Positions 7,149-20,781 of a DNA stretch of 64,000 nt are shown piece after piece. The position numbers were made by a program, and so were the translations under genes. The stretch is from Salinigranum marinum. Its GTDB lineage: Archaea; Halobacteriota; Halobacteria; Halobacteriales; Haloferacaceae. The notes below the pieces were generated by a model. That model had not been told where the DNA came from and did no database searches. It saw nothing but the letters and a program-made list of their open reading frames with translations. Location: NCBI RefSeq assembly GCF_024228675.1, contig NZ_CP100461.1:558001-622000 (forward strand). Direction: 5' to 3'. Position 1 is the first letter of the stretch; each line of letters opens with the position of its first letter.

Positions 7149-7457
7149 ATGTGCCGAGAACTCAACCGGGAACCGATCTGGGTCGCCACCATCCGCCTCG
7201 CGTACACCCAGGGGTGGGCGGACGTCGACAGCGTGATCGCGGAGGCGAACCTCGTTTCGGGCCGCGAAGACACCGTCGTGGACGTCCTCGGCACGATGTG
7301 CGACCGAGACCTCCTCGTCGAAGCGCCGGACTTCGACGCCAGTGGGCGGTATCTCGTCGGCCCCGTGCTCCGACGATCGGCCCCGTCGCCGCGCGGGATC
7401 AAACACCTCTCGGAGCACGCGGTCCACCAGTGGGCACGGCCGACGAGCGACGACTAG
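7149..7457 (+). CDS. Small winged-helix-like haloarchaeal protein
   Basis: A 102-residue protein of unknown function. The order of predicted helices and a short beta-hairpin (IRLAYTQGWADVDSVIAEAN, then VVDVLGTMCDRDLL and GRYLVGPVL) resembles a winged-helix domain, so DNA binding is possible. The ATG at 7149 is preferred; an in-frame GTG at 7110 would add 13 residues. Its stop overlaps, on the opposite strand, the stop of the MobA-like gene. It stands alone on its strand, with no operon partner. Confidence 0.6.
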   Translation: MCRELNREPIWVATIRLAYTQGWADVDSVIAEANLVSGREDTVVDVLGTMCDRDLLVEAPDFDASGRYLVGPVLRRSAPSPRGIKHLSEHAVHQWARPTSDD

Positions 7458-8146
7458 TCGAGCGCGTCGAGATCCGCCGGCGTGTCCACGTCCCGACGAA
7501 CCCCCGAGTCGCCCGTCTCGACGAGCGCCGATCCGTCGCTCGAGAGTAGGATCCGTCGCCCGCCGCGGTCGCCCGAGACGTCCGCGAGCGCGTCGAAGTG
7601 TCCCCGATCGAATAGCACCGGGTTCCCCCGCTCGCCGTCGACGGCGGCCGCGAGCGCCGTCCACGCCCCCGATCGGTAGACGTCGACGAGCGCCCGCACG
7701 CTGGCCGGGTCGACGCGCGGCATGTCTCCGAGGGCGAAGACGGCCGCCGCCACGGCGTCACCGTCGCCGTCGCCCTCGAGTTCCCGCACGCCCGCGCGGA
7801 CGGACGTCGCCTGGCCCGCGCGGTACGCGTCGTTCTCGACGATCGTGAACGGGAGGCCGTCGAGCGCCGCCGCGGTCCGGTCGGCCTCGTAGCCGACGAC
7901 GGCGACGAGCGGGTCGATGCCCGCTTCGACGAGCGTCCGGGCCGCGTGACGGACGATCGGCTCGCCGTCGAGCCTCGCGAGGAGTTTGTTGTCGTCGCCG
8001 AACCGCGAGCCGGTTCCGGCAGCGAGGAGGACGCCGGCGACGGACGGCACGTCGGCTCCTCCCTCGCTCTCGCCCGTCGCGTCCTCGCCTTCTCTCTCCC
8101 CGTTGGCCGGCGGATCGACGAGCGGGAGCCCCGGCCTGTCGGTCAT
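7454..8146 (-). CDS. MobA/MocA-like nucleotidyltransferase
   Basis: A 230-residue NTP-transferase with the signature VLLAAGTGSRFGDDNKLLA near residue 40, a VVGYEADRT segment and the metal-binding FALGDMPRVDP. Such proteins transfer CMP or GMP to molybdopterin (MocA, MobA) or act on other alcohol phosphates. Its start overlaps the moeA stop by 4 nt (ATGA), so the two are translationally coupled. With the CO dehydrogenase genes close by, a molybdopterin cytosine dinucleotide role is plausible because CO dehydrogenase uses MCD, but this is inference. The N-terminal 35 residues are an acidic low-complexity extension. Confidence 0.8.
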   Translation of the reverse strand: MTDRPGLPLVDPPANGEREGEDATGESEGGADVPSVAGVLLAAGTGSRFGDDNKLLARLDGEPIVRHAARTLVEAGIDPLVAVVGYEADRTAAALDGLPFTIVENDAYRAGQATSVRAGVRELEGDGDGDAVAAAVFALGDMPRVDPASVRALVDVYRSGAWTALAAAVDGERGNPVLFDRGHFDALADVSGDRGGRRILLSSDGSALVETGDSGVRRDVDTPADLDALD

Positions 8147-9462
8147 CGCTCGACCGCGTCGTACGGGACGACGTCGACCGACGTGCCGGCGTCGAGCCCC
8201 GAGTCGGTCACGACGAAGCCGTCGGCTCGCGTCGCGCGCGTACTCGACGAGAGGACGCTCGGGTCGAACGTCTCGTCGTACACCGTCAGCGGGGAGTCGA
8301 CGTGTCCGAGGGGGAACGCCTCGACCGTCCCGCCGGTTCCGTCGTCGTCGCCGTCGTCGCTCGTCAGTGTCACCGGGACGACGTAGTCGAACCCCTCGGC
8401 ACCAATCCCGAAGCCGCGGGCGAGCGTCGCCGGCGTGGACGGGAGCGGTCGGTCCCCGGTGAAGAACGGCCGGGCGACGAGCGTCGCGATCGTGTGCGCG
8501 CCGACGGGCTTGCCGGGGATGGCAAAGGCGACCGCGTCGTGGTCGGGGAGGCGGGCGACGGCGATCGGCTTGCCCGGGCGGATCCGGACCCGGTGAAACA
8601 GCACCGAGCCCAGGTCCGACAGCGTCCGGACGGCGTAGTCCTTCTTGCCGACGCTCGTCCCGCCCGTGGTGACGACGACGTCGTACTCGTCGGCGAGATC
8701 GGCGACGCGGTCGCGGACGACGCCGTACTCGTCGGGGACCGACCCCTCGTACGTGGCGTCGTGGCCCCACGACCGGACGAGCGCCGCGAGCATCGGTGAA
8801 TCGAGATCCGTGTGTCGCCCTTCGTGGATCTCGGTTCCGGTCGCGAGTAACGCGACCGAGAAGCGCTCGTGGACTTCGACTGCTTCGTGGCCGAGGTCGC
8901 GGAGCAAGATCGCGTCCTTCGCCGAGAGGCGTTCCCCGGCCGAAAAGAGCGTCTCCCCCCCGGCGACGTTGCTCCCCCGGCGGTAGACGTACGTCCACGG
9001 CTCCAGCGGTGGCCCCGAGAGCTGCTCGGTCCCGTTCTCCTCGCTCCGGACCGTCGCCTCCTCGCGCTTGAGGACCGCGTTGGCTCCCTCGGGGAGCGGC
9101 GCGCCGGTGGCGATGCGGACGGCGTCGCCGGTGGCGAGTTCCGGCGGGTCGTCCTCGGGGTAGACCGAGACGTCGCGGAGACGGAGGGGGTAGTCGTCCC
9201 TGGCGTCGAACGCGAAGCCGTCCATCGTCGCGTGCGACCGCGGCGGCTGATCCGTCTCGGCGACGACGTCGGCAGCGAGCGTGCGCCCCGAGAGGGCCGA
9301 CAGCGGGACTGTCTCCGTGTCGCGGTCGGCGAGCACCGAGCGGCGGAGCGCGTGGACGCGATCGGCGGCCGTCGTCCGGGAGAGCATCACGTCGTACGGG
9401 GGGTCCGTGGTTCGATCGTCGACCGGGTCGGCGTCTGTGGCGTCGTCGGAACTCCCTGTCAC
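8143..9462 (-). CDS. moeA: Molybdopterin molybdenumtransferase
   Basis: A 439-residue MoeA that inserts molybdate into adenylylated molybdopterin. Domain order is as usual: N-terminal region with PRSHATMDGFAFDARD, a middle domain with RIATGAPLPEGANAVL, the MPT-binding domain with ALLATGTEI and TTGGTSVGKKDY, and the C-terminal domain after IPGKPVGA. The motif IPGKPVGA differs slightly from the usual IPGNPVAA. It is the first gene of a two-gene minus-strand operon with the MobA-like gene. It likely supplies cofactor to the CO dehydrogenase encoded 1 kb away, among other molybdoenzymes. Confidence 0.92.
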   Translation of the reverse strand: MTGSSDDATDADPVDDRTTDPPYDVMLSRTTAADRVHALRRSVLADRDTETVPLSALSGRTLAADVVAETDQPPRSHATMDGFAFDARDDYPLRLRDVSVYPEDDPPELATGDAVRIATGAPLPEGANAVLKREEATVRSEENGTEQLSGPPLEPWTYVYRRGSNVAGGETLFSAGERLSAKDAILLRDLGHEAVEVHERFSVALLATGTEIHEGRHTDLDSPMLAALVRSWGHDATYEGSVPDEYGVVRDRVADLADEYDVVVTTGGTSVGKKDYAVRTLSDLGSVLFHRVRIRPGKPIAVARLPDHDAVAFAIPGKPVGAHTIATLVARPFFTGDRPLPSTPATLARGFGIGAEGFDYVVPVTLTSDDGDDDGTGGTVEAFPLGHVDSPLTVYDETFDPSVLSSSTRATRADGFVVTDSGLDAGTSVDVVPYDAVER

Positions 9463-10514: not shown

Positions 10515-11105
10515 ATGGAATTCAGTGGCGAATTCGAGCTGGACGGCGTATCGCCGGAGGACGCCTGGATCGTTCTCTCGGACCCAATCGCAGTACGGGA
10601 CTCACTCAAAGGGTGTCGGTACATCACACCCATCGACGACGACGACTTCAATTTCGACGACTACGAGGCCGAGGAGGACGTCCAGACCCTCCCGGACGCG
10701 GATCCCGACGTCGTCGCCGAGCGGGCGTTCAACGAGGGCGTCGTCTACGCGGCGCTGATGCAGGTCGGCGTCGGCAGCGTGAAACCGCGCTTCGAGACAC
10801 GGGTCACGATCGCCGAACGCGCCTTCCCGCGCATGGTCGCGACCGGCGGGGGCGACGCCTCGAACAGCAGTTTCGAGATGGAGTCGTGGATGGACATCGA
10901 GGAGACCGAAAGCGGCTCCATCGTCAAGTGGGGTACGGAGGCGGACGTCTCCGGGCGCATCGCCCAACTCGGCGGGCGCGTGATGAACCCGGTCGCCGAC
11001 AAGATCGTCTCGAACTTCTTCAAGAACATCCAGAAGCAGATGACCGGCTTCGAGGAGAGCGAGGAGTCGAAGAGCATGCGGGACCGCCTCAGCGGACTCC
11101 TCTAA
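10515..11105 (+). CDS. coxG: CO dehydrogenase accessory protein CoxG (SRPBCC fold)
   Basis: A 196-residue CoxG-family protein: MEFSGEFELDGVSPEDAW at the N-terminus, a predicted ligand-binding helix-grip fold, and the typical GRIAQLGGRVMNPVADKIV motif near residue 160. In bacteria CoxG helps anchor CO dehydrogenase to the membrane and may bind quinone. It begins the operon, 4 nt before coxM. Two features are unusual: an acidic insertion (DDDDFNFDDYEAEEDVQ) near residue 43, and no hydrophobic C-terminal anchor, the end being charged. It may therefore dock by another route. Confidence 0.85.
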   Translation: MEFSGEFELDGVSPEDAWIVLSDPIAVRDSLKGCRYITPIDDDDFNFDDYEAEEDVQTLPDADPDVVAERAFNEGVVYAALMQVGVGSVKPRFETRVTIAERAFPRMVATGGGDASNSSFEMESWMDIEETESGSIVKWGTEADVSGRIAQLGGRVMNPVADKIVSNFFKNIQKQMTGFEESEESKSMRDRLSGLL

Positions 11106-11109
11106 AGCC

Positions 11110-11970
11110 ATGAAAGCCGCACAGTTCGAACACCACGAACCGACGACGGTCGAAGAGGCGGTGAGCCTCCTCGGGAGCCTTGACGAACCGACCGTGCTCG
11201 CCGGCGGACAGAGCCTCATCCCGATGATGCGCTTTCGGCTGGCGCGCCCCGAGACCGTCATCGACCTGAACCACATCGCCGATCTCGACTTCCTCGAAGA
11301 GGAGAACGGTCACCTCCGGATCGGCGCGCTCTGCCGACACGTCGACATCGAGGAGTCCGCTCTCGTCGCCGAGAAGTACGGCAGCTTCGCCGACGCCGCG
11401 CCGCTGGTCGCGGACCCCCAGATCCGAAACAGAGGAACGGTCGTGGGGAGCGTCGCCCAGTCCGACCCGAAGGGCGACTGGGGGACGGTCCTCCTGGCGC
11501 ACGACGGCGAGGTCGTCGCCGCCGGTCCCGATGGCGAGCGCGTCATGCCCGCCGCGGAGTTCTTCCTCCTCCCCTACGACAACATGCTGGGCGAGGACGA
11601 ACTCATCACGGAGCTTCGCGTCCCCACTCCCTCGGCACACGAGGGCAGTTCCTACCACAAGCTGAAGCGCAAGGTGGGCGACTACGCGATGGTCGGCGTC
11701 GCCGCACGCGTCGTCTTGGACGAGGGTGTCATCACCGATGCTGGCGTCGCGCTCACCGCCGTCGACATCACGAACGTCTCCGTCCCGGACGCCGAGGAGA
11801 TCCTCGAAGGCGAGACGCCCTCGGGTGACCTGTTCAAGCGGGCGGGCGAGGCTGCGGCGGAGACCGCCAATCCGGAGTCGGACGAACACGGCAGCGCCGA
11901 CTACAAGGAGAACATGACCCGCGTGCTGACCCAACGGGCGCTCGCGGACGCTGTGGAGCGCGCGAGGTAA
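11110..11970 (+). CDS. coxM: CO dehydrogenase medium (FAD) subunit
   Basis: A 286-residue FAD-binding subunit of the molybdenum hydroxylase family; it passes electrons from the Fe-S subunit to FAD and then to the quinone pool. The two FAD motifs are [10 protein letters not shown] near residue 34 and a second one at [19 protein letters not shown] near residue 110. The C-terminal CO_deh_flav_C domain follows from about residue 175. Only 2 nt separate it from coxS, so it is co-transcribed. A short acidic tail region ([15 protein letters not shown]) is a haloarchaeal variation before the final helix. Confidence 0.92.
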
Positions 11971-11972
11971 TC

Positions 11973-12605
11973 ATGAGCACGAAAGACATCACCATCACCG
12001 TCAACGGCACAGAGAAGGAACTCAGCGTCGAACCCCGCCGGTTGCTGGTCCACGCCATCCGCGAGGACCTCGACCTCACCGGGACGCACATCGGCTGTGA
12101 CACCGGGAACTGCGGCGCGTGCACCGTCTACAAGGACGGCGAGGCTGTCAAGTCCTGTCTCATGTTCGCCGTCCAGGCCGACGGCGCGGAGGTGACGACG
12201 GTCGAGGGCATGGCCGACCTCCCCGAGGCGGGGATGGGCCGCATGGACGACCTCCACCCCATTCAGGAGGGCTTCCGGTACATGCACGGACTGCAGTGTG
12301 GCTACTGTACGCCGGGCATGATCATGGCGGGCAAAGCGCTCCTGGAGAAGGACGCAGACCCCTCCGAGGCGACGATCCGCGAGAACATTAGCGGCAACCT
12401 CTGTCGCTGTACCGGCTACCAGAACATCGTCAAGTCCATCCAGTACGCCGCGGACGTGCTCAACGACCGCGAACCGCCAGAGTCGCCCGTCGAGCACCCC
12501 GAGTCCGGTGGCGAGACCGCCGCAGACGGCGGGTTCGACTGTGGAGCGGGATGTGGCTGTGACGTGACGTTCGAGAGCGGGACCGAAGGCGGTGAGGAGC
12601 GATGA
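11973..12605 (+). CDS. coxS: CO dehydrogenase small (2Fe-2S) subunit with extra Cys tail
   Basis: A 210-residue iron-sulfur subunit carrying two [2Fe-2S] clusters. The plant-type ferredoxin ligands are C42, C47, C50 and C62; the second cluster uses C109, C112, C144 and C146 in QCGYCTPGM and NLCRCTGY. Typical CoxS proteins are about 160-170 residues. This one has an additional tail of about 45 residues with three more cysteines (C190, C194, C196 in [10 protein letters not shown]). Its stop overlaps the coxL start (ATGA), so the two subunits are coupled. Confidence 0.93.
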
Positions 12606-15094
12606 GTAGCGAGACCGAGAAACCGGACGCGAAGTACCGACACGACGACGACGGCGGTCCGGACCCCGAAGCCACCCACGGCCACGGTCGTGGTGGCATG
12701 GGTGAAGAGGTAAAGCGGAAGGAGGATCGTCGCTTCATCACGGGTCGCGGCAACTACGTCGACGACATCAAGAAGGACGGGATGCTCCACTGCGAACTCG
12801 TCCGGAGCCCCCACGCTCACGCCCGCATCAACTCCATCAACAAGGACCGGGCGCTCAACGTCGACGGCGTCGTCGCCGTCCTCACGGCCGAGGACCTCGC
12901 CGAGCACGAACTGGCGACGATGCCGACGCTCATGGACGACACCCAGGACGTCCTCGTCGGCGACAAGGTGAAGTTCCAGTCTCAGGAGGTGGCGGCCGTC
13001 ATCGCCACGGACCGCTACATCGCCAAGGACGGCGCGGAGAAGGTCGAAGTCGACTACGAAACCCTGGACGCCGTCGTCGACGCGAAGAAGGCGCTCGAGG
13101 ACGACGCCCCCCTGGTTCGAGACGACATCGAAGGCCAGGAGTCGAACCACATCTTCGACTGGGAAGCGGGTGACGAGGTAGCGACGAAACAGGCGTTCGA
13201 GGACGCCGACGTCACCGTCGAACAGGACATGAACTACCAGCGCATCCACCCCGCTCCCATCGAGACGTGCGGGTGTGTCGCCGACTGGGACACCGCGAAC
13301 GAGAAGATGACCGTCCACCTCACCTCGCAGGCACCCCACGCGCATCGAACCCTCTTCTCGATGGTGTCGGGTATCCCCGAGCACAAGGTGCGAATCATCA
13401 GCCCCGACGTCGGTGGCGGGTTCGGCAACAAGGTGCCCATCTACCCCGGGTACGTCGTCGCCGCCGCCGCGTCGTACGTTCTCGGGAAGCCGGTGAAGTG
13501 GGTCGAGGAGCGCTCGGAGAACATCCAGACGACCCACTTCGCCCGCGACTACGACATGACCGGCCGCATCGCGGCGACGGCCGACGGGCAGATCACCGCG
13601 GTCGACGTGGACGTGCTCGCCAACCACGGCGCGTACAACGCGGTGGCGCAGCCGTCGAAGTTCCCGGCGGGCTTCTTCAAGATATTCACGGGATCGTACG
13701 ACATCCCGGCGGCGTACAGCAGCCTGGAGGCCGTGTACACGAACACCGCCCCCGGTGGCGTCGCGTATCGGTGTTCGTTCAGGGTGACGGAAGCGGTCTA
13801 CCTCATCGAGCGACTGGTCGACCTGCTGGCGGACGAACTCGACATGGACCCGGCCGAACTCCGGCGGAAGAACTTCATCCCGAAGGAGGCGTTCCCCTAC
13901 GAGTCCACGACGGGCTGGACGTACGACTCCGGCGACTACGAACGGGCGCTCGACCAGGCGCTCGAAGCCGTCGACTACGACGGGCTCCGTGCGGAACAAC
14001 AGCGCCGTCTCGACGCGGACGACGACCGGCTGTTGGGGATCGGGCTCTCGACGTTCACGGAGATCGTCGGTGCCGGGCCCGGCAAGCAGTGTGACATCGC
14101 CGGCGTCGAGATGTTCGACTCCGCCGAGATCCGCGTCCACCCGACCGGCAACGCGACGGTCAGGATCGGCGTCCAGACCCAAGGTCAAGGACACGAGACG
14201 ACGTTCGCCCAGATCGTCGCCGAGGAACTCGGCCTCGACGTCGAGGACATCTCTGTCGAGCACGGCGACACCGACACCGATCCCTACGGGCTGGGAACGT
14301 ACGCGTCGCGGTCGACACCAGTGGGAGGAGCGGCGACAGCGGTGGCCGCCCGGAAGGTGCGCGAGAAGGCCAAGAGCATCGCCGCCAACGAACTCGAGGT
14401 CGCCGAGGAGGACGTCGTCTGGGACCGTTCCTCGGGTTCCTTCCAGGTGAAGGGCGCGCCCGACCGCGTGGTGACGATGAAGGAGATCGCCGCCGCGTCG
14501 TACATGAACTCCCCGGCGAACGAGGAGCCCGGCCTCGAAGCCGTCGACTACTACGACCCGCCGAACATGACGTTCCCGTTCGGGGCGTACGTCTGCGTGG
14601 TCGAAGTCGACCGCGAAACGGGCGAGGTGGACATCCGGCAGTTCTACGCGCTCGACGACTGCGGCAACCGTATCAACCCGATGGTCATCGAGGGCCAGAT
14701 CCACGGCGGCCTCGCACAGGGGATCGCGACGGCAATGCTCGAGGAAGTAACCTTCGACGACAACGGCAACGTCACCGCGGGAGACTTCATGAACTACCTG
14801 CTCCCGACCGCGATGGAGATCCCTCACATGGACACCGACTACACGGTGACGCCGTCGCCGCACCACCCGATCGGCGCGAAAGGCGTCGGCGAGTCCCCCA
14901 CGGTGGGGTCGCCGCCGGCGATCGTCAACGCCGTCGTCGACGCGATGGCCCACGCCGGCGTGCGCCACGTCGACATGCCCATGACGCCCGACCGCGTCTG
15001 GGCCGTCCTGGACGAGGCTGGGCTGGCGCTCGACCCGGCCGACCGGTTCGACTTCGACTTCGACGCCGGCACGGACGCCGAAGCGGACGACTGA
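12602..15094 (+). CDS. coxL: Form I CO dehydrogenase large (Mo-Cu) subunit
   Basis: An 830-residue catalytic subunit that oxidises CO to CO2 with a Mo-S-Cu centre and molybdopterin cytosine dinucleotide. The decisive motif is AYRCSFR at residues 388-394, which marks genuine form I enzymes; C391 corresponds to the Cu-binding C388 of the Oligotropha enzyme. The active-site glutamate is E764 in [10 protein letters not shown] (E763 in Oligotropha). Other conserved parts include [15 protein letters not shown] and [12 protein letters not shown]. An acidic N-terminal extension and acidic C-terminus fit halophilic adaptation. The subunit order G-M-S-L in one operon supports a complete enzyme. Confidence 0.95.
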
Positions 15095-15334
15095 GCACGG
15101 GAGCCGGCGCCGGTGTCGAATTCGTAACTGTATTCGGCATCGAATCCGGCTTCAGAACAGGATTCGTAACCGTATTCGACGTCGACACACACTTCGGTCC
15201 GGAGGTCGTAGACGGAGTCGATGTCGACATCGGAGCCGGACCACCCGCGTCGTTCCGACCCGTCCGCCGCGAGCGCGGCGTCGCGCCCGCGCTCGCCGTC
15301 GGGTCGGGGTGACCGACCCCCTCACGCACACCAG
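15095..15334. repeat. Intergenic 240 bp with a 19-bp direct repeat
   Basis: Between coxL and the XdhC-YHS gene, 15120-15138 (ATTCGTAACTGTATTCGGC) recurs at 15162-15180 with two mismatches, a spacing of 42 bp. The first copy also starts a small hairpin (ATTCG, 4-nt loop, CGAAT). This is the only large gap in an otherwise tightly packed operon, so it may hold an internal promoter, a processing site or a regulator site. Confidence 0.5.
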
Positions 15335-16471
15335 ATGACAGACGACACGGAGACAGAGACGAACCGAGACGAACACAGCGCCCGCGCGGACGCCGCCTCG
15401 CGGGAGACGGTCGACCGGCTGGCCCGACAGTACACCGAACAGGGTCAGCCGTTCGCCCGCGTGACGGTCGTCCGCCGGGAGCCGCCGGTGTCGGCGCGTG
15501 TCGGCGACCGCGCGATCGTGACGCCCGACGGCGAACTCACCGGCTGGATCGGCGGGGTCGCCTGCGCGCAGTCGGTCGCGGTGCGGGAGGCGCAGACGGC
15601 GCTCCGTCGCGGCGACGCCAAACTGGTCGGCATCGCGCCCGATCCCGACACGATCGACCGATCCGGGCTGGAGGCGTTCCCGATGACCTGCCACAGCCAG
15701 GGGACGCTCGAACTGTTCGTCGAGCCGGTGACGCCCGTCCCACGTCTGGTGGTCGTCGGCGACTCGCCCATCGCCCGGGCGGTGTCGGGCCTCGCAGCCG
15801 GCCTGCCGTACGACCTGACGGTCGTCGCCCCCGACGGTGCGGACGTGGCCGGCGCGGACCGCCTGGTCGATCCCGGCGACGCGGCGTCGCTGGCCGAGGC
15901 GTTCGACGGAGCGACGTGGGTCGTCGTGGCGTCGATGGGCGCGACCGACGACGTCGCCGTCGAAGCCGCCCTCGCGGCGGGCGTCCCGTACGTCGGCCTC
16001 GTCGCCAGTCGCCGACGCGCGGACGAACTCTGCGAACGAGTCGCCGACAGAACGGGTCGCGCGGTTGAGGACGTCCGTGCCGCGGTGACCTCGCCGGCCG
16101 GTGTCGACATCGGCGCGCGGATCCCCGAGGAGATCAGCGTGAGCGTCCTCGCCGAGCTGATCTCCGTCCGGCGGGCCGGCGACGCCGCGGGGTCGGGTGG
16201 GACTCACGAACACGCCGACGCGACCGGCGGGACCGTCGAGACTCACGAGGGTCCCGATGCCGATGGCGACGCCGACGTCGGAGACGACACCGGCGGCGCC
16301 GACCCCGATCACGAGACCGCGACCGACCCCGTCTGCGGCATGGACGTGACGGTCGGCGAGGCGGCGGCGACCGCCACCCACGAGGGGAGGACGTACCACT
16401 TCTGCGGGCAGGGGTGTCAGGAGGCGTTCGTCGATGATCCGGACCGGTTCGTCGAGCGGGCAGAGCCATGA
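15335..16471 (+). CDS. XdhC/CoxI-type maturation protein fused to a YHS metal-binding domain
   Basis: A 378-residue two-part protein. Residues 1 to about 285 are an XdhC/CoxI protein: an N-terminal domain with RVTVVRREPPVSARVGDRAIV and the conserved FPMTCHSQGTLELFVEPV, then a Rossmann domain beginning RLVVVGDSPIARAV. XdhC proteins bind and sulfurate the Mo cofactor before insertion. A linker rich in His and Asp (about 288-330) leads to a C-terminal YHS domain with DPVCGMDV, YHFCGQGCQEAF and DDPDRF. YHS domains bind metals, often copper. The ATG at 15335 is chosen over an upstream extension lacking homology. Its stop overlaps coxD (ATGA). Confidence 0.85.
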   Translation: MTDDTETETNRDEHSARADAASRETVDRLARQYTEQGQPFARVTVVRREPPVSARVGDRAIVTPDGELTGWIGGVACAQSVAVREAQTALRRGDAKLVGIAPDPDTIDRSGLEAFPMTCHSQGTLELFVEPVTPVPRLVVVGDSPIARAVSGLAAGLPYDLTVVAPDGADVAGADRLVDPGDAASLAEAFDGATWVVVASMGATDDVAVEAALAAGVPYVGLVASRRRADELCERVADRTGRAVEDVRAAVTSPAGVDIGARIPEEISVSVLAELISVRRAGDAAGSGGTHEHADATGGTVETHEGPDADGDADVGDDTGGADPDHETATDPVCGMDVTVGEAAATATHEGRTYHFCGQGCQEAFVDDPDRFVERAEP

Positions 16472-17460
16472 CCGGGGCGAACGGGACGTCGACCGACGGC
16501 GACGCCGAGGCGTCGGTCGACGTGACCGAGGCCGACCTCCGTGAGCGGTTCGAGGCGGCCGACTACGTCGCCGACGACACGCTCGTCACGACGGTGTATC
16601 TCGCGCTCCGGCTGGGCAAGCCGCTGCTCATCGAGGGCGAACCCGGCAGTGGGAAGACCGAACTCGGGAAGGTGCTCGCCGAGGGGTTCGACACCGAACT
16701 CATCCGCCTGCAGTGTTACGAGGGACTCGCCGCCGAGAACACCCTCTACGAGTGGAACTACACCAAACAGCTGTTGGCCGTGCAGTCGGGTGAGGGCTCG
16801 GTCGCCGACGAGTCGGTGTTCTCCGAGGAGTACCTCTTCGAGCGGCCGCTGTTGCGCGCGCTCACGCACGACGGCGACGCCCCGCCGGTGTTGCTCATCG
16901 ACGAGGTCGACCGCGCCGACGAGGAGTTCGAGGCTTTCTTACTGGAGGTGCTCTCGGACTTCCAGGTCACCATCCCGGAGTTCGGCACCGTCTCGGCCGG
17001 CCGACCGCCGATCGTCATCATCACCTCCAACCGGACGAGAGGGCTGTCGGACGCGCTCAAACGCCGGTGTCTCTACCTCCACGTCGACGCGCCCGCCTAC
17101 GAGACGGAGGTCGAGATCGTCCGCCGCAAGGTCCCGCAGTTGGACGCGATTGTCGCCGCCGAGGTGTGCGCCATCGTCGGGGAACTCCGCGAGGAGGCGT
17201 TCCTCAAGCGGCCGGGCGTCGCCGAGACGCTCGACTGGGCGCGCGCGGTCGCCGAACTCCGGGCACCCGGCGACGACTCCGACCTGACCGCCGCGGAGAT
17301 CGAACGCACGATCGGCACGCTCCTGAAGGAGGTCGAGGACGTCCAGCGCGTCGACGCCACGCTGCTGGAGCGCTTGGAGCGCGCGGCGCGGGAGGCCCGC
17401 GCCGCCGCCGACGGCGAGGCCACGCCGACCCCCGACGACGGGGCGCCGAACGGGGACTGA
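16468..17460 (+). CDS. coxD: CoxD, MoxR-type AAA+ ATPase for CO dehydrogenase maturation
   Basis: A 330-residue AAA+ ATPase. Walker A is GEPGSGKTE near residue 54 and Walker B is PVLLIDEVDRADEEFEAF; the sensor 1 segment is IVIITSNRTRGLSDALKRRC. Bacterial CoxD is needed, with CoxE and CoxF, to convert the [MoO2] centre of apo CO dehydrogenase into the active Mo-S-Cu centre. It is coupled to the XdhC-YHS gene upstream and lies 6 nt before coxE. An acidic N-terminal 18 residues and a Pro/Asp-rich tail flank the ATPase domain. Confidence 0.92.
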   Translation: MTGANGTSTDGDAEASVDVTEADLRERFEAADYVADDTLVTTVYLALRLGKPLLIEGEPGSGKTELGKVLAEGFDTELIRLQCYEGLAAENTLYEWNYTKQLLAVQSGEGSVADESVFSEEYLFERPLLRALTHDGDAPPVLLIDEVDRADEEFEAFLLEVLSDFQVTIPEFGTVSAGRPPIVIITSNRTRGLSDALKRRCLYLHVDAPAYETEVEIVRRKVPQLDAIVAAEVCAIVGELREEAFLKRPGVAETLDWARAVAELRAPGDDSDLTAAEIERTIGTLLKEVEDVQRVDATLLERLERAAREARAAADGEATPTPDDGAPNGD

Positions 17461-17466
17461 CCACTC

Positions 17467-18798
17467 GTGACCTGGTTCGACGAGACGCAGACACCCGACT
17501 TCGTCGCCGCCCGCGAGCACGTGCTCGGAGAGGTGGTGACGTTCGCCCGACGGCTCCGCCGCCACGGCCTCTCCGTCCCGGCGAACGCGGCGCTGTCGGC
17601 CACGGAGGCGCTCTGTGCGGTCGGCCTCTCCGACCGCGACGGCGTCCGGGCGGCGACCCACGCGACGCTCGTCGCCGACGCCCGCGACACGGAGACGTTC
17701 GAGGCCCACTTCCCGGAGTTCTGGTACCGCCTCCGGACGGGGCTGGAGGCGACGGCCACGTCGGACGACGTGGGGGACCGCTCGAACACCGGGGCGTTCT
17801 ACGGGGCCGAAGTCGACGGGGGCGTCGCCGACGAGCTGACCGCCACCGCCGACGCCGACGGTGACGTCGGTGGCGGCGGTGACGCCGGCGGGGACGACGA
17901 GACGGTGTACGAGCGACGCCTCGTCGACCACGACGCCGACGCGGCGGTCGACGGCACCGGCGAGCGAAGCCGCGCCTCGACGTACAGCGCGGGCGGCGCG
18001 GGGACGGCGGTCGAGGACGAGACGACGGGCCGGACGCTCGACCGGAACGCGCTCACCCGGTTCCAGCAGGCGCTCTCGTCGCTCGCCGGTCGCCGGTGGA
18101 CGGCCGACGACGGCCGACGGATCGACGCCCGACGGGCGCTTCGATCGAGCGTGGGCACCGGCGGGGCCGTCGTCTCGCTGCCGACCCGCGACCGCAAACC
18201 GACCGCGTTCCGGGCCTGCCTCCTGGTCGACGTGAGTCAGTCAGTCCTCGATACGGTCGACCGCGGCTTTCTCCTCTCCGTCCTCGACGCGCTGGTCGCC
18301 GAGGGCCGCGGCGTCCGCGTCTTCTTCTTCGACACGGACGTCCGCGAGGTGACGGACGTGTTCACGAACTCCCGGGGCGATCCCGCGGCTGCGCTCGAAC
18401 GCGCCGAGGTGGCGTGGGGCGGCGGGACGCGGATCGGCGACGCTGTCACCGAACTCCGGCGTCGGTGGCCCGATGCGGTCGACCGCCGGACGGTCACGCT
18501 CGTCGTCAGCGACGGGCTCGACGTCGGCGAGGTCGACGAACTCGAACGCGGGATGAGCTGGCTCTCGGGGCGGTCGCGGGCGGTCGTGTGGCTGAATCCG
18601 CTCGCGGCTTCCGCGAAGTACGAGCCGACCTGCCGCGGGATGGCTGCGTCGCTGCCGTACGTCGACGGCCTGTTCGCCTTCGCCGGCTCCGAGGATCTCG
18701 CCGAGGTGGCGCGCCAGCTGTCGCGACACGGGCCACGAGGACCGATCGGCTACGAACACGACTTCCGCGACCGCACGGTCGCCGAGGAGGTCGCCTGA
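17467..18798 (+). CDS. coxE: CoxE, von Willebrand A domain maturation protein
   Basis: A 443-residue VWA protein with a GTG start, partner of the CoxD ATPase. The MIDAS motif is split as usual: LLVDVSQSVLD (DxSxS) near residue 255, then GGGTRIGDAV and VVSDGLDVGEVDEL. The N-terminal 100 residues carry the CoxE helical region (FVAAREHVLGEVVTFARRL). Between them is an acidic, Gly-rich insertion (about residues 115-185) typical of haloarchaea. It follows coxD by 6 nt and precedes the DUF364-like gene by 1 nt, so the maturation genes form one unit. Confidence 0.9.
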   Translation: MTWFDETQTPDFVAAREHVLGEVVTFARRLRRHGLSVPANAALSATEALCAVGLSDRDGVRAATHATLVADARDTETFEAHFPEFWYRLRTGLEATATSDDVGDRSNTGAFYGAEVDGGVADELTATADADGDVGGGGDAGGDDETVYERRLVDHDADAAVDGTGERSRASTYSAGGAGTAVEDETTGRTLDRNALTRFQQALSSLAGRRWTADDGRRIDARRALRSSVGTGGAVVSLPTRDRKPTAFRACLLVDVSQSVLDTVDRGFLLSVLDALVAEGRGVRVFFFDTDVREVTDVFTNSRGDPAAALERAEVAWGGGTRIGDAVTELRRRWPDAVDRRTVTLVVSDGLDVGEVDELERGMSWLSGRSRAVVWLNPLAASAKYEPTCRGMAASLPYVDGLFAFAGSEDLAEVARQLSRHGPRGPIGYEHDFRDRTVAEEVA

Positions 18799-18799
18799 G

Positions 18800-19606
18800 A
18801 TGCTTCGGGCAGTCCACGACGCGCTCGCGGGGCGTGCGGCGGCGGCGACCGGCCCCCGCGTGACCGTCGGCGACCGCGTCGTCCTCGTCGAGTGTACCCA
18901 CCCAGATCACGGCGCGCTCGCGGGCGTCGCCCACCGGCCGGCCGGGCCGGTCGACGGCGTCGATCCCGACTGCGGCGTCGCCCGCCTCGCCGACGGTGCG
19001 CTGTCGGCCCCGGCGGGGAGCGTCGCTCGCGCCGCGGGGCTGGCGACGCTCAACGCGCTGTCGGTCCCCGACGTCGACTGGCTCGTCGGCGATCCGATGG
19101 CGTCGCTCTCCCCGGAGGTTGAGACGGTGGCGACCGTCGGCCTCTTCCGGCCGGCGTTCAAGAAGTTCGGCGATGTCGCGGTACGCGTCGTCGAGCGCGA
19201 CCCCGGGGCGATCGATCCCGCATCCCTGCCGGCGGGCGTGCCGACGACGCTCTTCTCGCCCGCGGAGGCCGCGGCGGCGTTCGACGGCGCGGACGTCTGT
19301 TTCGTCACCGGGTCGACGCTGGTGTACGGCGGCGTCGACGACTACCTCGCGGCGGCCGCTGGAGTACCGCTGGTCGTCCTCATCGGCGCGACCGCCTCGT
19401 TCCGGCCGGACCACGCGTTCGACCGCGGCGTCGACCTCCTCGCCGGAGCGCGCGTGCGCGACGCCGAGCACGTCCGCGAGCGGATCGTCGCCGGCGACTG
19501 CGGGACGGCCCTGCACGACGCCGGCCTGCAGAAGGTGTATCGCCCCTCGAACGCGAACCTGACAGGCGTACAGCTACCGACCGAACCCACCGACACCGAA
19601 TCATGA
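18800..19606 (+). CDS. DUF364-like protein in the cox maturation operon
   Basis: A 268-residue protein. The segment TVGLFRPAFKKFGDVAVRVVERDPG and the following ADVCFVTGSTLVYGGVDDYL resemble the DUF364 Rossmannoid domain, proposed elsewhere as a heavy-metal chelation domain. The N-terminal half has a small domain with RVVLVECTHPDHGALAGVAHRP. It overlaps the second XdhC gene by 4 nt and is 1 nt from coxE, so it is certainly part of the operon. A role in delivering sulfur, copper or a modified ligand to CoxL is an inference from position; bacterial cox operons usually lack it. Confidence 0.7.
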   Translation: MLRAVHDALAGRAAAATGPRVTVGDRVVLVECTHPDHGALAGVAHRPAGPVDGVDPDCGVARLADGALSAPAGSVARAAGLATLNALSVPDVDWLVGDPMASLSPEVETVATVGLFRPAFKKFGDVAVRVVERDPGAIDPASLPAGVPTTLFSPAEAAAAFDGADVCFVTGSTLVYGGVDDYLAAAAGVPLVVLIGATASFRPDHAFDRGVDLLAGARVRDAEHVRERIVAGDCGTALHDAGLQKVYRPSNANLTGVQLPTEPTDTES

Positions 19607-20781
19607 CGAACGACACACACGACGTGAACGAGACGGACGCGAACTGGAGCGTCCCCGAGACCGAGGTGATGGCGCGTGCCCGCGCGCTCCTCGACGGCGA
19701 CCGTCGGGGCGTCCTCGCGACGGTCATCCGCGTGGAGGGAAGCGCCTACCGACGGCCGGGTGCGAAGATGGTGATCCCCGAGGACGGCGACGGCGTGGGA
19801 CACATCACCGCCGGCTGTCTGGAGGACGAAGTACAGCAACTCGCGGGCGAGGTACTCGCCGCGGGCGAGCCGCGCGTCGAGCGCTACGACCTCATGCCCG
19901 AAGCCGACGCCGAAGACGACGTCTGGGGGCTCGGCGTGGGCTGCAACGGCGTCATCGACATCCTGCTCGAACCGCTCGACGAGACGTACCGCCCCGCGAT
20001 CGAGGCCTTCTGGCACGGGCGGGACGTCGGCGTGCTCACGGTCGTCGACGGCGACGACGAACGCGAGGGCGCACGGGCGTACTACGATCCGGAGACCCAG
20101 GCGTTCGACCGCGGCGACGGCTTCGAAGTCGACCTCGCCGACGACGTGCGGGGAGTCGCGGCGGAACTCACGGCGCGGGGGAAAGCCGACTCCGTGACGG
20201 TCGACGGCGTCACGGTGTTCGTCGACGGGCTCGCCGCCTCCGCGGAACTCGTCGTCGTCGGCACGGGCCACGACGTCGGTCCGATCGCGGAACTCGGCGC
20301 GCAGGCGGACTTCCGCGTGACCGTCGTCGGCTTCCGTGGCGCGGCGGCCAAGGCCGACCGGTTCCCGGCCGCCCGCGACGTGGTGTCGACCTCGCCCGCG
20401 CGGATGACCGACGCGTACGACTTCGGCGAGAACACGTACGTCGTCGTGGCGACGCACAACTTCGTCGACGACCGCCTCGCGATCGAGGGGCTTCTGGACA
20501 CCGACGTCCCCTACGTGGGGCTGATGGGCCCCCGCGAGCGGTTCGAGGAGATGGTCGACGAGTTCTCCGCGGAGGGGACGACGTTCACCGACGCCCAACT
20601 CGACCGGCTGTACACGCCGGTCGGGCTCGACTTGGGCGGCGGGTCGCCGTACCAGATCGCGCTGTCGATCGTGAGCGAGGCGCTCGCGGTGAAGAACGGC
20701 CGCGAGCCGAAGCACCTAAAAACGAGAGAAGGAACCATCCACGACCGCGTGGAGCTGTCGGCCGACGGATCGGGCGGTTAG
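19603..20781 (+). CDS. XdhC-family Mo-cofactor maturation protein (CoxF/CoxI type)
   Basis: A 392-residue XdhC homologue and the last gene of the cox operon. The N-terminal XdhC/CoxI domain shows VLATVIRVEGSAYRRPGAKM and GHITAGCLEDEVQQLA, then WGLGVGCNGVIDILLEP, all diagnostic. The C-terminal Rossmann domain starts LVVVGTGHDVGPIAELG and ends with GLDLGGGSPYQIALSIVSEALAVKNGR. It is closer to the standard full-length XdhC than the fusion protein upstream, so the operon carries two diverged family members, as bacterial operons do (CoxF, CoxI). Its stop overlaps the opposite-strand HAD gene by 4 nt. Confidence 0.88.
   Translation: MTNDTHDVNETDANWSVPETEVMARARALLDGDRRGVLATVIRVEGSAYRRPGAKMVIPEDGDGVGHITAGCLEDEVQQLAGEVLAAGEPRVERYDLMPEADAEDDVWGLGVGCNGVIDILLEPLDETYRPAIEAFWHGRDVGVLTVVDGDDEREGARAYYDPETQAFDRGDGFEVDLADDVRGVAAELTARGKADSVTVDGVTVFVDGLAASAELVVVGTGHDVGPIAELGAQADFRVTVVGFRGAAAKADRFPAARDVVSTSPARMTDAYDFGENTYVVVATHNFVDDRLAIEGLLDTDVPYVGLMGPRERFEEMVDEFSAEGTTFTDAQLDRLYTPVGLDLGGGSPYQIALSIVSEALAVKNGREPKHLKTREGTIHDRVELSADGSGG

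Follow-up and report, generated by a model that had tools for sequence, protein, structure and literature searches.

A complete form I CO dehydrogenase (CODH) operon with the gene order coxG-coxM-coxS-coxL-[XdhC-YHS]-coxD-coxE-DUF364-XdhC was identified at positions 10515-20781 of the window, the 64,000-nucleotide stretch of DNA analyzed in this study. Aerobic CO oxidation is catalyzed by form I CODH, which has a rare Mo-S-Cu center at its active site. The host is a haloarchaeon of the order Halobacteriales, and the named relatives found belong to Halobaculum. MoeA-like and MobA/MocA-like genes lie upstream of the operon in divergent orientation. The features are as follows:

7454-8146, minus strand: MobA/MocA-like nucleotidyltransferase (Mo cofactor), start approximate (PF12804)
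8143-9462, minus strand: MoeA-like Mo insertase (PF03453/PF00994)
10515-11105, plus strand: coxG (PF06240)
11110-11970, plus strand: coxM, FAD subunit (Pfam)
11973-12605, plus strand: coxS, 2Fe-2S subunit (Pfam)
12540-12560, plus strand: CoxS C-terminal Cys-rich tail, C190-x3-C-x-C; characteristic of haloarchaea, mostly as C-x4-CCGGP
12602-15094, plus strand: coxL, form I, active-site motif AYRCSFR (TIGR02416; match to 8uem CoxL)
15335-16471, plus strand: XdhC-YHS fusion protein (P0001), CoxF counterpart, open frame of 378 aa (translation, Pfam, alignment, AlphaFold2)
15437-15628, plus strand: XdhC_CoxI domain, residues 35-98, with invariant Cys77 (Pfam, alignment)
15746-16159, plus strand: XdhC_C Rossmann domain, residues 138-275 (Pfam)
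16193-16315, plus strand: acidic linker, residues ~287-327 (linker comparison; pLDDT < 50 at 287-322)
16322-16459, plus strand: YHS domain, residues 330-375, candidate metal ligands D331, C334, C357 and C361 (Pfam, alignment)
16468-17460, plus strand: coxD, AAA+ ATPase, start overlapping the stop of the fusion gene (ATGA) (Pfam)
17467-18798, plus strand: coxE, VWA_CoxE (Pfam)
18800-19606, plus strand: DUF364 protein ('putative heavy-metal chelation') (Pfam)
19603-20781, plus strand: second XdhC-family protein, without YHS (Pfam)

The large subunit scored 1246 bits against TIGR02416 (cut-off 991), and its motif fits the form I pattern AYXCSFR. The frame of the fusion gene could extend upstream to 15221; since homologues agree in opening with MTxD at 15335, the start was set there. 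All domains of the translation exceeded their Pfam cut-offs, namely XdhC_CoxI (48.1 bits, cut-off 24.3), XdhC_C (80.5, cut-off 29.7), and YHS (PF04945; 44.9, gathering cut-off 30.3), in agreement with the first-pass annotation, which had described an XdhC-type chaperone with a C-terminal YHS domain and had read the motifs DPVCGM and YHFCGQGC correctly. The Asp/Cys ligand set of YHS domains was present, the candidate ligands being assigned by analogy with PMC4626032. AlphaFold2, supplied with an alignment of 31 orthologues, modeled both the XdhC part (pLDDT ~90-97) and the YHS domain (~97) confidently, with residues 287-322 disordered between them. The only strong solved relatives of the protein were the XdhC structures 2we7/2we8 and 3on5. 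The architecture is genuine and not a chance frame, since it is conserved across three bacterial phyla as well as over 20 haloarchaeal genomes. The other YHS match in the same genome was a permease-like protein (L002 238-1677) with one YHS domain at its C-terminus and another YHS-like motif mid-protein.

The linker had also been described as His/Asp-rich. This holds for the window protein's own linker but not as a conserved feature: only 3 of 23 haloarchaeal linkers, the window's included, contained at least three His residues, which rules out a His-rich linker as a conserved copper feature. Acidity was general among the 23 linkers (27% D+E), and an acidic protein composition is usual in halophiles.

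Judged by sequence and operon position, the fusion protein is the counterpart of CoxF. It contains both domains expected of CoxF, XdhC_CoxI and XdhC_C, and its gene is co-located with form I coxMSL as well as coxDE. The CoxF signature M117-x-C119-x-S121-x-G123 sits directly ahead of the XdhC_C domain, and C119, S121, and G123 were invariant among 31 aligned CoxF. Of the 38 sequences in the tree set, 33 contained the C-x-S-x-G motif, fused and unfused CoxF alike, and the five rows without it formed a separate clade (100/99). One of these motif-less proteins adjoins a CoxF (G346b), three had no coxL nearby in the stretches read (G762a, G762b, and G328), and the fifth is G1174, placed by its sequence. 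The second XdhC of the window has CNG at the motif position, and the Rv0376c homologue 2we8 has CGG where CoxF has C-x-S-x-G. XDH-type XdhC (TIGR02964) and 2we8 share the two-domain fold of the XdhC part but, unlike the fusion, lack YHS. Identity as an XDH-type XdhC was ruled out by the NCBIfam cut-off, the fusion scoring 22.6 against TIGR02964 (cut-off 161.6).

The best-characterized counterpart, the CoxF of Oligotropha (Afipia) carboxidovorans, resembles the fusion protein (~34% identity) in having XdhC_CoxI and XdhC_C domains, the C-x-S-x-G motif, and form I coxL and coxDE nearby. Unlike the fusion, it is 280 aa long with neither YHS nor linker, and the gene order there is coxMSLDEFG versus coxGMSL-F-DE in the window. 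Pelzmann et al. (2014) marked the same motif in Oligotropha (MCPSHGTM) as putatively Cu-binding (PMC4240915). CODH from the Oligotropha coxF mutant contained 1.85 Mo, 1.40 sulfane sulfur, and 0.04 Cu per mol (PMC4240915, Table 1), so that Mo was normal, sulfur near-normal, and copper defective. This defect is not assigned to CoxF alone, since the coxF mutant was also without CoxE (PMC4240915). CoxD and CoxE are likewise needed in Oligotropha. The requirement of CoxF for CODH copper is established in Oligotropha only (PMC4240915).

Two-way searches of 243 Halobacteriales genomes for coxL and XdhC-YHS revealed a close association. Form I coxL was found in 22 genomes, 21 of them above the TIGR02416 cut-off and one with a broken copy or fragment (G156). 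XdhC-YHS was present in 21 of these 22, including 19 clean copies, one split only by a long linker (G232), and one frame-shifted (G156). Among the matches listed, which extend down to E ~1e-17, none of the other 221 genomes had a YHS domain on XdhC, though many have XdhC-profile matches (Fisher's exact test, 21/1 vs. 0/221, p ~2e-29, which is only indicative, the genomes being related). The one haloarchaeal exception, G036, has a CoxF without YHS (L061 8838-9947). This genome retains coxMSL, coxD, coxE, and the Cys tail of CoxS, and thus represents a natural YHS deletion for comparison.

The CoxF gene directly followed coxL in all 25 haloarchaeal loci fetched, and the YHS part was present in 24. 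In three genomes (G146, G223, and G002), coxD was located elsewhere with the fusion still directly behind coxL; in G146, another large subunit with a lower score lies ~1 kb away from coxD. A search confined to the T. roseum plasmid gave no coxD match, and the fusion follows coxL there as well. Given this displacement or absence of coxD, the link of CoxF-YHS to form I CODH seems closer than that of CoxD and CoxE. A contig scan with the full protein returned two Halobaculum loci and four P-type ATPase YHS domains, and nothing else. Of the 25 haloarchaeal form I cox loci, 21 also encode the DUF364 protein, in most cases paired with a second XdhC.

The first-pass annotation had set the protein against bacterial cox operons; the host is an archaeon, yet cox operons of bacteria, namely Thermomicrobium, Burkholderiales, and Deinococcus (with a degenerate YHS), contain the architecture too. 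A profile match was obtained in 152 of 398 Pseudomonadota genomes, and among the matches listed, one spanned XdhC and YHS, beside form I coxL. Five of 399 Burkholderiales genomes encoded the fusion. It lay beside coxL in G553 and G321, next to coxD/coxE at the end of a contig in G346 (whose coxL is on a different contig), and ~11 kb from a coxL fragment with no intact neighboring coxL in the MAG G446; form I coxL was not found in the MAG G514. The start of the fusion gene contains masked bases in both G446 and G514 (L089 and L090), so their cox clusters are likely decayed or misassembled. CoxL proteins at or near some Burkholderiales fusions (L038, L088, and L104) read AYRCSFM or AYRCSLR, not AYXCSFR.

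Plasmid records contained six fusions (Natronorubrum, T. roseum, Paraburkholderia, two Caballeronia, and Deinococcus), all with form I coxL. The Deinococcus YHS lacks the first Cys and scored slightly under the Pfam cut-off. CO oxidation has been described for the fusion carriers T. roseum (PMC2615216) and Halobaculum sp. WSA2 (PMC5743682; L028). In 385 Alphaproteobacteria, CoxF-like matches were found in 13 genomes, none of them fused to YHS. The bacterial spread is a lower bound, Actinomycetota and Chloroflexota being represented by plasmid records only. Nearly every sampled fusion is thus found with form I CODH, as had been anticipated, with G446 and G514 as exceptions, and the fusion was not common beside copper-free xanthine dehydrogenases in the genomes sampled. 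The YHS domain is an accessory of CoxF and not an essential part, since it is absent from the CoxF of Oligotropha and from all 13 alphaproteobacterial CoxF.

None of the 27 intact copies scored, a set with near-duplicates, had lost the YHS ligands (D/N, C, C, C). FCC-x2-C was found in 24 of these 27 CoxF YHS domains, the window reading FCG, and the extra Cys of FCC was absent from the P-type ATPase examples fetched (FCS or FCG). The arrangement D-x2-C ... C-x3-C is shared with the YHS domains found in the M. phlei adenylyl cyclase and in heavy-metal P-type ATPases; unlike those, the CoxF YHS is joined to a Mo-enzyme maturation factor. Within the plasmid collection, most of the YHS domains closest to that of T. 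roseum (48-56% identity) came from heavy-metal P-type ATPases. This kinship makes it improbable that the YHS binds Zn, Fe, or no metal and acts as a structural or docking module, as does the fact that the domain accompanies the one enzyme of its family known to need copper. Such a role would have precedents, because some YHS/TRASH domains bind a different metal or no metal at all; the TRASH domain of L24e binds Cd2+ via Cys, and the toluene-4-hydroxylase YHS was metal-free in the crystal (PMC4626032). The YHS-like stretches of phenol hydroxylases, which were weak matches, also favor it.

In the tree of the XdhC part, approximately five gains or losses of YHS were needed. The haloarchaeal copies formed one clade (100/99) inside a wider group with Thermomicrobium, Deinococcus, and an unfused Nonomuraea CoxF, and the Burkholderiales fusions were placed on the other side of the tree. 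The YHS tree (45 columns) had no starred branch and did not separate one fusion from several. These repeated gains or losses, together with the missing YHS of G036, the degenerate one of Deinococcus, and the absence from the alphaproteobacterial clade, are consistent with the YHS being a passenger, an evolutionary relic without a role in CODH maturation. In the intact copies, archaeal and bacterial, the ligand residues are nevertheless kept despite a freely varying linker, and we regard this explanation as very unlikely.

By analogy with Oligotropha CoxF and characterized YHS domains, we propose that the protein is the CoxF maturation factor of form I Mo-Cu CODH and that its tethered YHS is a putative thiolate Cu(I) site loading the sulfurated Mo center, a reading to which we assign a probability of roughly 60%. 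The XdhC part would dock on folded apo-CODH and guard or position the sulfurated Mo. The flexibly tethered YHS may bind Cu(I) via its Asp/Cys ligands and offer it, directly or through the C-x-S-x-G motif of CoxF, to Mo-SH, yielding Mo-S-Cu. The present analysis establishes the domain architecture, the orthology to CoxF by sequence and operon position, the genomic association with form I coxL, and the conservation of the candidate ligands, and the literature supplies the CoxF requirement and a YHS domain that renders another enzyme responsive to copper; the binding of copper by this YHS and its transfer are inferred. Because many CoxF do without YHS, the domain is predicted to matter most under scarce copper or strong competition for copper. 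The points against this proposal are the CoxF proteins without YHS in Oligotropha, the 13 Alphaproteobacteria, and G036, the degenerate domain in Deinococcus, the other or absent metals of some YHS/TRASH domains, the fusions of G446 and G514 with no intact coxL nearby, and the simultaneous loss of CoxE in the Oligotropha coxF mutant. In Oligotropha, CODH contains copper although the CoxF there has no YHS (PMC4240915), so the YHS would be an addition to the copper route and not the route itself. The first-pass annotation had suggested a single-protein route for copper. The need for a same-operon XdhC-type CoxF (PMC4240915) supports the underlying idea, but "single-protein" was overstated, since CoxD and CoxE are needed too in Oligotropha.

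Alternatively, the YHS could be a copper sensor or gate, with CoxF acting, or releasing the enzyme, only when copper is available. The sole biochemically studied YHS fusion found, the M. phlei adenylyl cyclase, is regulatory and is activated by Cu specifically (PMC4626032), and the dispensability of YHS in many CoxF would fit a regulatory add-on. On the other hand, CoxF itself is needed for copper in the product (PMC4240915), which makes a donor role the shorter step, and the disordered linker of ~35 residues in the AlphaFold2 model is more in keeping with a mobile donor than with an allosteric coupler. We therefore consider a sensor or gate unlikely and favor loading of the Mo center by a tethered donor.

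Further Cys-rich stretches were found in the same operons. Haloarchaeal form I CoxS proteins carry a C-terminal extension with C-x4-CCGGP or a near variant in ~24 of 26 loci (L027-L061), the window having C-x3-C-x-C. No such tail was present in the bacterial form I CoxS read or in two other Mo-hydroxylase small subunits of the window's genome (G000). The CoxS tail is a possible metal site. The unfused CoxF of G543 and G1035 (L091 8782-9720 and L094 490-1566) end in SCCGGTG and SCCG, and both group with YHS-bearing Burkholderiales CoxF (tree, moderate support). In these unfused CoxF, the short Cys tail possibly stands in place of the YHS. CCGGG also occurs within some haloarchaeal linkers. The CoxS tail, the CCGG-like CoxF tails, and the linker CCGGG could be further copper ligands, or they could be unrelated. 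We tentatively extend the proposal, with considerable doubt, to a dedicated CODH copper path in which CoxF-YHS would be a self-contained copper donor that shields Mo-SH and passes on Cu(I), the haloarchaeal CoxS tail would act as a second thiolate relay station, and a CCGG-like CoxF tail would replace the YHS in some bacteria.

We found no description of XdhC and YHS domains together in the literature, a search of open-access papers only and thus weak evidence of absence; the fusion is apparently an undescribed, conserved variant of CoxF. CoxF has been proposed, from a weak motif, as the factor that binds the copper of CODH and hands it over. A CoxF with a recognizable domain of a metal-binding type, nearly confined to form I operons, provides a compact protein for tests of copper binding and transfer, and deleting its YHS may allow the delivery of copper to be distinguished from sulfido-ligand protection.
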